DNA from: Pedobacter chinensis
GTDB taxonomy: Bacteria; Bacteroidota; Bacteroidia; Sphingobacteriales; Sphingobacteriaceae
Assembly: GCF_003339865.1 (NCBI RefSeq)
Contig: NZ_QPKV01000003.1
Coordinates: 248,001 to 312,000, forward strand
Direction: 5' to 3'
Length of the DNA stretch: 64,000 nucleotides
Within the stretch, counting starts at the first letter, position 1. Every line of letters starts with the position of its first letter. The notes beneath the pieces are model-generated. The model was not told the DNA's origin and ran no database searches. It saw only the letters and a list, made by a program, of their open reading frames with translations. The translations under genes and the position numbers were made by a program. This document shows positions 55,471 through 57,188 of this stretch, piece after piece.

Positions 55471-56481
55471 CTATTTGAAATAATAGATTGCCGCATAAAT
55501 AATAGCTGCCAATGTTGCTGAAACCGGAATGGTTAAAATCCACGCCCAGATGAGGTTGATGGTTACACCCCAACGCACTGCTGAAACACTTTTTACCACA
55601 CCTACACCCACGATTGAACCTGTAATGGTGTGTGTAGTTGAAACAGGAATACCGAAATGCTCCGTTATGCCTAATGTTATCGCACCAGCGCCTTCAGCAG
55701 CAACACCCTCAAGCGCTGTTACTTTAGTGATTTTTGAGCCCATTGTTTTCACGATTTTCCAGCCACCACTCATGGTACCTAAGGAAATGGCAGAATAACA
55801 CGCAATCGGAACCCATGAAGGCATTGACTCAAAATCAGGGATTACATTTGCCGCAATTAATGCTGTAGCTATAATACCCATAACCTTTTGCGCATCGTTA
55901 CCCCCGTGAAAAAAACTTAATGCTGCCGATGATAATAACTGCAAGCGCTTAAACCACTTCTCTGCAGTTGCGGGTTTTGCATAACGGCAAATGTTGATGA
56001 TGATTAAAGTCAAAACAACTGAAATTACCATACCGATTATTGGTGCCAATACAATAAATGATACAATTTTAATTACATAGCCCATGTTTACTGCATCAAG
56101 CGGACTAGCGCCTGTAAGCAGGGCATGTGTCATACCCGCACCAGCAAAACCACCAATTAAAGTGTGCGATGAGCTGGAAGGAATACCATACCACCAGGTA
56201 AGAAGGTTCCATATAATTGCGGCCACTAAACCAGCAAGAATAACTTCTAAAGTAATATAATTTTCAATTACCGTTTTCGCAACCGTGTTGGCCACTTTGT
56301 GATCGGTAAAATAAAAGTAAGCCGCAAAATTGAAAAGCGCAGCCCACAAAACCGCCTGAAAAGGCGTAAGAACTTTTGTAGAAACAACTGTTGCAATTGA
56401 GTTAGCGGCATCGTGGAAGCCGTTAATGTAATCAAAAGCAATAGCCAGAATTACAACAACAACCAATAAGGTAGTTACCAT
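55471..56481 (-). CDS. pit: PiT-family inorganic phosphate transporter
   Basis: 336 residues, about ten transmembrane helices; duplicated signature FDYINGFHDAANSIATVVST near the N-terminus and GGNDAQKVMGIIATAL in the middle, plus GIPVSSTHTITG. Symports phosphate, usually as a metal-phosphate complex, with protons. It lies 12 bp downstream of a PhoU-like gene, a common pairing. A candidate Pho box precedes the operon. Confidence 0.94.
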   Translation of the reverse strand: MVTTLLVVVVILAIAFDYINGFHDAANSIATVVSTKVLTPFQAVLWAALFNFAAYFYFTDHKVANTVAKTVIENYITLEVILAGLVAAIIWNLLTWWYGIPSSSSHTLIGGFAGAGMTHALLTGASPLDAVNMGYVIKIVSFIVLAPIIGMVISVVLTLIIINICRYAKPATAEKWFKRLQLLSSAALSFFHGGNDAQKVMGIIATALIAANVIPDFESMPSWVPIACYSAISLGTMSGGWKIVKTMGSKITKVTALEGVAAEGAGAITLGITEHFGIPVSTTHTITGSIVGVGVVKSVSAVRWGVTINLIWAWILTIPVSATLAAIIYAAIYYFK

Positions 56482-56493
56482 GTTTGTGTTTTA

Positions 56494-57135
56494 TTAAGCG
56501 TTTTTAACCAGGATAGTTTCAAGCACATTCGCCACATCTTCGCACTTATCTGTCGCTTTTTCTATCGTTTGTAAAACCTCTTTTTGTTTAATTAATTCAA
56601 TCGCATTGGTTTCGTATTCAAACAAACGGGCAACCGCCAATGTAAATACATAATCAGCCTGATTTTCGCCGCTATTGATCCGGATACAAGCATCTGCAAT
56701 AACACGGATGTTTTTGAAACTGCGTAATTCTTTTATTGCTTTATCAATATCAGTACACATTTCTACCAAAAGCTCAGCAATTTTTACAATTGGTTCGCTA
56801 ATAGTGTTCATATTGTACATTTGCATACGGTTTGCGGTACCATAAATATAATCGGCAACATCATCAACAGCAGTAGCCAATTGGTGAATATCCTCTCTAT
56901 CAAACGGCGTAATGAAGTTCCTGCTCAACTCAAGAAAAATTGAATGGGTAATGTCATCTCCAACGTGTTCTAAACGTTCAATTTCCTTAAAAACAGTTTT
57001 TCTACTTTCAGGATCAGCCGTGCTAACCATTTCCAAAAGCGCCTCAGCAATTTTTAATGCATTGGTACCAGCCTGCTCAAAAAGAGGATGAAATTTTCTA
57101 TCTTGAGGAGTAAAGAACTTAAAAATATTGTTCAT
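56494..57135 (-). CDS. PhoU-like DUF47 protein, partner of the PiT transporter
   Basis: 213 residues, all-helical PhoU-type fold with FFTPQDRKFHPLFEQAGTN at the start, EHVGDDITHSIF and DREDIHQLATAVDDVADYIY, typical of DUF47 proteins. These accompany PiT transporters and probably regulate phosphate uptake. First gene of the operon; 12-bp gap to pit. Confidence 0.92.
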   Translation of the reverse strand: MNNIFKFFTPQDRKFHPLFEQAGTNALKIAEALLEMVSTADPESRKTVFKEIERLEHVGDDITHSIFLELSRNFITPFDREDIHQLATAVDDVADYIYGTANRMQMYNMNTISEPIVKIAELLVEMCTDIDKAIKELRSFKNIRVIADACIRINSGENQADYVFTLAVARLFEYETNAIELIKQKEVLQTIEKATDKCEDVANVLETILVKNA

Positions 57136-57154: not shown

Positions 57155-57188
57155 CAAAGCTACAAGCCCAATGTTAAGTTAATGTTAA
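57155..57188 (-). promoter_or_regulatory. Candidate Pho box and -7 element for the phosphate operon
   Basis: On the minus strand TTAACA-TTAAC-TTAACA (57188-57173) is a direct repeat with 11-bp spacing, ending 10 bp before TAGCTTTG (57162-57155), a TAnnTTTG -7 box followed by C. The repeat occupies the -33 region, and no TTG is present there, as in promoters that need an activator. The form TTAACA-N5-TTAACA is like the PhoP box of Bacillus. Confidence 0.55.

Follow-up and report, generated by a model that had tools for sequence, protein, structure and literature searches.

The presumed operon for a PhoU-like protein (PhoU_div, DUF47) and the phosphate transporter Pit in Pedobacter chinensis is preceded by a tandem TTAACAT operator in fixed phase with its promoter. 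From its sequence characters, we conclude that this operator is probably a Pho box, i.e. an activator site for the PhoB-type regulator of Bacteroidota. It lies in the window that was analysed, a 64,000-nt stretch of DNA (G000:C15:248001-312000), in which a preliminary description had placed a candidate Pho box in front of the same genes, and our analysis supports that interpretation. Pho boxes are known as a kind, but a Bacteroidota operator sequence with its promoter phase was not found described in the literature searched, where the TTTAACA motif of Riemerella was the one Bacteroidota phosphate operator sequence. Once an operator is defined in sequence and promoter phase, Pho regulons would become readable from Bacteroidota genomes. 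In addition, the operator led us to a conserved predicted small RNA that may join the phosphate response.

Operator and promoter of the DUF47-pit operon

Read directly on the minus strand from 57188 to 57155, the site is TTAACAT-TAAC-TTAACAT-TGGGCTTG-TAGCTTTG, in which TGGGCTTG is the 8-nt stretch between operator and -7 box. The operator itself (57188 to 57171; TTAACATTAACTTAACAT) comprises two TTAACAT half-sites arranged as direct repeats with an 11-bp period; the spacer TAAC, read with the T that ends the distal half-site, gives a third TTAAC (Table 1). The 11-bp TTAACA-TTAAC-TTAACA repeat claimed in the preliminary description is therefore present, exactly at 57155-57188, but the 10 bp given there to the -7 box are 8 nt when counted from TTAACAT and 9 nt from TTAACA. 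The DUF47 gene starts with an ATG at 57135, 19 nt past the -7 box, and pit follows on the same strand after a gap of 12 nt. Both gene products match their Pfam families above cut-off, consistent with the phosphate-transport targets (PhoU-like/PiT) proposed earlier. The closest named relatives of the DUF47 locus are those of Pedobacter sp. Leaf41 and P. agri, with 99% protein identity.

Table 1. Features of the pit promoter and operon, and the small RNA copy of the same genome
Feature	Coordinates	Strand	Basis or remark
Distal half-site TTAACAT	57182..57188	-	TTAACA columns 97-100% in 37 dereplicated loci
4-nt spacer TAAC, largely conserved	57178..57181	-	columns between half-sites
Proximal half-site TTAACAT, 8 nt before -7 box, near -33 place	57171..57177	-	
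-7 box TAGCTTTG (Bacteroidota consensus TAnnTTTG)	57155..57162	-	sequence and consensus excerpted from PMC7366714
PhoU_div/DUF47 gene, first in presumed operon	56494..57135	-	PF01865, 82.1 bits (cut-off 24.4)
pit, PHO4/PiT-family phosphate transporter, second gene	55471..56481	-	PF01384, 301.2 bits (cut-off 33.7)
Predicted small RNA, own copy, ~80 nt	L332:221-301 = G000:C16:514820-514900		one of a genus-wide family

A PstB model gave 53 matches in the genome and none above cut-off (best 165.3 of 343.2), and Pit is therefore probably a main phosphate importer of this organism. Plant-associated Bacteroidetes are reported to be without PstSABC (PMC8115612, in excerpt), so the control of pit is important there.

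Absence of the motif upstream of orthologous operons had been named beforehand as one observation that would speak against a Pho box. Among the best 80 of 359 related DUF47 loci, TTAACA-N5-TTAACA was found in all 80 (77 exact and three with one mismatch), compared with 0.05 of 80 expected at up to one mismatch from 20 shuffles of each upstream sequence. The spacer from TTAACA to TAnnTT was 9 nt in 75 of these loci and 10 nt in two, with no -7 box recognised in three, and the distance from the box to the gene match was 52-62 nt in 76 loci and 129-140 nt in the other four. In the 37 loci left after dereplication at 88% coding identity, the major base averaged 99.5% over the half-site columns, 87% over the five intervening columns and 42.5% over the upstream flank. 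By these characters the operator is lineage-wide and of Pho type. Pit promoters of the P. cryoconitis type (L077, L079, L082, L088) carry an extra TTAACAC that is located 7 bp, not 11, before the distal half-site.

A phylum survey found the DUF47 family in 37 of 138 genomes. Of 30 loci inspected upstream, the box was clear in five, all from the same family as Pedobacter. Three DUF47 loci of a second family in the class (f4) had the box with one or two mismatches, displaced upstream by roughly a helical turn, and one more had it with three mismatches; in the remaining DUF47 upstream regions of the 30 read phylum-wide, it was not recognised. At DUF47 loci L234, L237 and L240, which come from a family of the class other than that of Pedobacter, box and -7 box are separated by 10-11 nt more than at the Pedobacter loci; this hints at an additional half-site or at an activator working from another distance.

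The operator had also been proposed to cover the place of the -33 element. In agreement, TTTG at a 17-23-nt spacer to TAnnTT was absent from 77/77 promoters with a recognised -7 box. The promoter consensus TAnnTTTG/TTTG is given in the excerpts of PMC7366714, where a -33 motif was likewise not found in F. johnsoniae, and the missing -33 element is therefore weaker evidence than it appears. Two hallmarks of Pho boxes are present at pit: at least two direct repeats with an 11-bp period (seven conserved and four less conserved nucleotides), and a fixed phase to the -7 box with the upstream element replaced. As judged from this layout, an operator that fills the -33 region without TTTG, 8 nt from the -7 box, has the geometry of an activator site. 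Each TTAACAT half-site would be occupied by one PhoB protomer, the two protomers being arranged head to tail at a distance of 11 bp. They would stand at the position where the housekeeping sigma factor normally touches a -33 TTTG, an element that this promoter lacks, and would bring RNA polymerase to the TAnnTTTG -7 box that follows after 8 nt.

Genes behind the box and the candidate regulator

A genome search for the box, with enrichment before phosphate genes, had been suggested as a check, and one half of that expectation held. The bare box was not enriched genome-wide, with 191 sites at up to two mismatches vs 184 for the reversed pattern, and the 29 sites within the window were unremarkable (19.7 expected); the box was, however, found before ppk1, PhoB-like, nuclease and phosphatase genes and one pstS. 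When the box was combined with the -7 box at the fixed spacing, exactly one copy was present in the 5.45-Mb genome, i.e. the pit site. A survey of 201 genomes of the order recovered this composite from 173, and the reversed control matched once in the whole set. At up to three mismatches the composite was mildly enriched in the Pedobacter genome (50 vs 31). Twelve sites had up to two mismatches (the pit site has none), including one before a DoxX-like gene identified by eye (one mismatch), one before an Exo_endo_phos gene (two mismatches), one before a TonB receptor gene (two mismatches) and at least three inside genes; the remaining sites were before genes without a known phosphate link or before no gene.

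Two sites of this genome are recorded separately. Behind the two-mismatch composite at the TonB receptor gene, the lipoprotein encoded next is pectate-lyase-like by eye (L191:7962-12346 = G000:C16:505961-510345), and this pair resembles the low-phosphate PUS clusters of F. johnsoniae. The sole other exact TTAACAT-N4-TTAACAT of the genome (L002:1501-1518 = G000:C22:122030-122047) has no matching -7 box at up to three composite mismatches; a lipoprotein gene, DUF4397-like by eye, follows after 113 bp.

Across the order, 27 of 30 fetched composite loci had DUF47 downstream. A further 34 matches were hand-picked among the matches listed for their unlikeness to the pit site, five of which overlap those 30. 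These 34 comprised, again among the matches listed, six DUF47-type genes by eye, five scavenging enzymes, two TonB receptors (one Pfam-checked), two sigma factors, one site inside an unidentified ORF and 18 sites before a small RNA. The five scavenging genes were assigned by Pfam to Endonuclease_NS (two), Phosphodiest, Metallophos and Phosphoesterase. The low-phosphate genes of F. johnsoniae include nucleases, phosphatases and pectate-lyase-like lipoproteins (PMC8115612, in excerpt), and these resemble the kinds of gene found behind the box here.

The polyphosphate kinase gene ppk1 was represented by 30 loci, including that of P. chinensis, from 61 genomes searched. Within 160 nt upstream, the box was exact in 16 loci and had one mismatch in seven, two in six and three in one, compared with shuffle expectations of 0, 0.1, 1.0 and 7.4, respectively. 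All 16 exact boxes are positioned 10 nt before CAGTTTTG (14 loci) or CAGATTTG (two loci), i.e. in fixed phase. The ppk1 promoter differs from that of pit in having CAnnTTTG at a spacer of 10 rather than TAnnTTTG at 9, i.e. one nucleotide further and with C for T.

Class-wide, the strict composite was rare, with 13 matches in 12 of 247 genomes and one control match; five of the 12 genomes belong to the Pedobacter family. Three of the seven matches outside the family were before phosphate-type genes. One of the seven precedes pstS (TIGR02136, 303.2 bits, cut-off 206.6), one a DUF47 gene of a further family (f56), one a lipoprotein that is pectate-lyase-like by eye with no Pfam match, and two precede small carboxypeptidase-regulatory-like proteins (one Pfam-checked); by eye, one is before a methyltransferase-like protein and one before a secreted protein. 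A third hallmark of a Pho box is that several phosphate genes and the gene of the regulator itself lie behind it, and this was also found, with a -7 box that differs at ppk1.

The genome has 12 OmpR-type regulator genes. TTAAC-N6-TTAAC was found without mismatch in the preceding 250 nt of one of the 12 (G000:C12:182957-183643), the next best having two mismatches, in a scan that leaves outside the operon promoters of at least five other regulator genes located directly behind a kinase gene. Upstream of this gene are three exact TTAAC units and an imperfect fourth (TTACAT) ending 9 nt before TACTTTCG, the same phase as at pit. Across 30 order-level loci (including P. chinensis), three exact TTAAC units at 11 bp were present in 24, two in five and one in one. 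In 30 loci of the class, in which some start codons are uncertain, the repeat was found at up to one mismatch within 170 nt in 16, compared with 0.6 in shuffled sequences. Among the 10 of 12 regulators of the genome that were scanned, the protein is the best match to TIGR02154 and NF053854, but it misses the curated PhoB cut-offs of both (227.6 of 296.2 and 220.5 of 270 bits, respectively). Among solved structures, MtrA, BaeR and RegX3 rank highest, and E. coli PhoB, represented there by its receiver domain, comes far lower. A HELKTP-type kinase motif follows the orthologue in 21 of 30 class loci, and no kinase gene was found adjacent to it in P. chinensis. We therefore use the name PhoB-like, not PhoB, because of the scores below both cut-offs, the structure ranking and the lack of an adjacent kinase here.

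The operator very likely binds a PhoB-like phosphate regulator, and the protein encoded at G000:C12:182957-183643 would be that regulator. Ownership of the box by a different OmpR-family member (RprY-like or other), with TTAAC-type recognition and a non-phosphate signal, is unlikely. The other OmpR-type genes, the promoters beyond the 250-nt scan and the sub-cut-off scores of the PhoB-like protein leave some room for it, as do the 583 DAP-seq peaks of Riemerella PhoP (TTTAACA), many of them non-phosphate, with an ArcA-like motif (excerpts of PMC9603813); however, within the 250 nt scanned before each gene, perfect tandem repeats were found only at the PhoB-like gene, and several targets of the box are phosphate genes.

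We propose that the PhoB-like regulator would activate rather than repress pit, with low phosphate as the probable signal. In Sinorhizobium, orfA-pit is repressed by PhoB in low phosphate, and a protein on the proximal half-site at pit would overlap the expected footprint of RNA polymerase and could block transcription. The regulation of PiT also varies among species, according to an excerpt of PMC4415409. Nevertheless, the same box and regulator acting by repression in low phosphate is slightly less probable still than another regulator: none of the 77 promoters tested has a -33 element, which suggests dependence on an activator; a comparable arrangement recurs at ppk1 and the scavenging genes, where activation would be expected; and pit of B. 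fragilis is lower, not higher, in a phoB mutant (PMC3547664, in excerpt). Finally, it is highly improbable that the repeat arose by chance or decorates the promoter with no regulator acting on it. Bare TTAACA-N5-TTAACA-like sites are common in this AT-rich DNA and not enriched, but the 80/80 conservation, the fixed -7 spacing, the diverged upstream flank and the one control match in 201 genomes refute this reading.

A Pho box from which a PhoB-type regulator would activate pit is therefore our best explanation. The repeats, their fixed -7 phase and conservation, the missing -33 element and the like repeats at ppk1, the PhoB-like gene and other phosphate genes are properties of the sequence alone. 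Against this explanation are the rarity of the strict composite outside the family, the differing -7 box of ppk1, the lack of enrichment of the bare box, the sub-cut-off scores, structural ranking and missing kinase neighbour of the PhoB-like protein, and the B. fragilis pit-type permease, whose wild-type expression did not change when phosphate was limiting.

A predicted small RNA behind a similar operator

Eighteen of the hand-picked composite sites (among the matches listed) precede a conserved stretch of ~80 nt that ends in an intrinsic terminator. A covariance model made from 12 copies of the transcribed part only had matches in 75 of 201 genomes of the order (74/75 of the genus and one weak match elsewhere), with one to five matches per genome of the genus. 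The family has a nearly invariant TTTGGTTA loop, a nearly invariant GTTTAGGTT(T)AGTTGAT linker and the 3′ terminator. All 12 terminator pairs showed at least one compensatory change, 96.5% of cells were paired, and 102 cells were changed on both sides, compared with 27.5 in shuffles, in an alignment that was fitted to the structure and includes seven weak reverse-strand matches; in the unfitted 12-copy alignment, 5/12 pairs showed such change. Rfam searches with four loci returned sub-threshold matches only.

Seventy of the RNA matches listed were examined (30 loci returned, 39 hand-picked and the P. chinensis copy). The box was present within 90 nt at up to two of 12 mismatches in 61 of the 70 and at up to three in 69, compared with 1.9 and 9.8 in shuffles. 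Seven copies are not independent, because the RNA was first found through them, and without these the count at up to two mismatches is 54/63. For 58 of the 70 copies, the start of the best TTAAYA-type box is at -38/-39, and for eight it is upstream by one more repeat, at -49/-50. The TTAAYA form fits 59/70 at up to one mismatch (1.0 in shuffles), and the RNA promoter box is therefore looser than that of pit. The P. chinensis copy has a degenerate box, TTAATC-N5-TTAATA, with the -7 box CATATTTG. No box precedes L352, the single copy from beyond the genus.

A search of the P. chinensis genome for targets complementary to the linker gave 43 sites at up to two mismatches, one of them the RNA gene, vs 103 for the reversed control, and thus showed no enrichment. 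A weak lead is L427 (G000:C24:29136-29149), in which a one-mismatch complement of the linker starts 23 nt before an ATG. Literature searches by title and abstract gave nothing relevant on small RNAs of Pedobacter or on phosphate small RNAs of Bacteroidota; PhoB-dependent small RNAs reportedly exist elsewhere, e.g. in Sinorhizobium. We see about an even chance that the same operator drives this undescribed ~80-nt RNA family as a phosphate-starvation regulatory RNA of Bacteroidota, i.e. a RyhB-like arm of the Pho regulon.

Comparison with known Pho systems

The half-site of the E. coli Pho box is CTGTCAT, located ~10 nt from the -10 box. The E. coli box consists of two 11-nt direct repeat units, each with seven well conserved and four less conserved nucleotides, and PhoB-family proteins bind such units head to tail (PMC4415409, in excerpt). 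The pit operator is alike in its 7+4 architecture, 11-bp period, direct repeats and replacement of the upstream promoter element. In contrast, its half-site is TTAACAT, it stands 8 nt from a Bacteroidota -7 box, and its target is PhoU_div-pit. The Bacillus PhoP box has TTAACA-like repeats with N5, i.e. nearly the same half-site and spacing, but in a different phylum and promoter type.

Within Bacteroidota, the DAP-seq motif of Riemerella anatipestifer PhoP has TTTAACA as its most conserved part, and the protein binds its own promoter in EMSA (PMC9603813, in excerpt). This system shares the core TTAACA and the phylum with ours; it differs in its 583 peaks and ArcA-like motif, and the excerpted text describes no pit operator. 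Putative bioinformatic Pho boxes were also given for marine plcP clusters in a study with a flavobacterium among its isolates (PMC4796936); these have other target genes, and the excerpts of that study contain no motif sequence.

The closest regulon for comparison is that of B. fragilis PhoRB (PMC3547664). The words motif and consensus are absent from that paper, which gives no operator sequence under those names. According to excerpts of the same paper, B. fragilis has Pst, whereas the Pedobacter genome is without PstB above cut-off. Its pit-type permease BF3715 was 52-fold lower in a phoB mutant at low phosphate than in the wild type at high phosphate, and in the wild type it was unchanged (under 4-fold) by phosphate limitation; the authors place it among genes that depend on PhoB but have no relation to the phosphate response. 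Induction of the ppk gene BF2645 (24-fold) required PhoB, whereas the polyphosphate kinase BF3714 was PhoB-independent. B. fragilis therefore offers a counterpart to the genes behind the Pedobacter box, in the form of a PhoB-dependent pit-type permease and the polyphosphate kinase BF2645.
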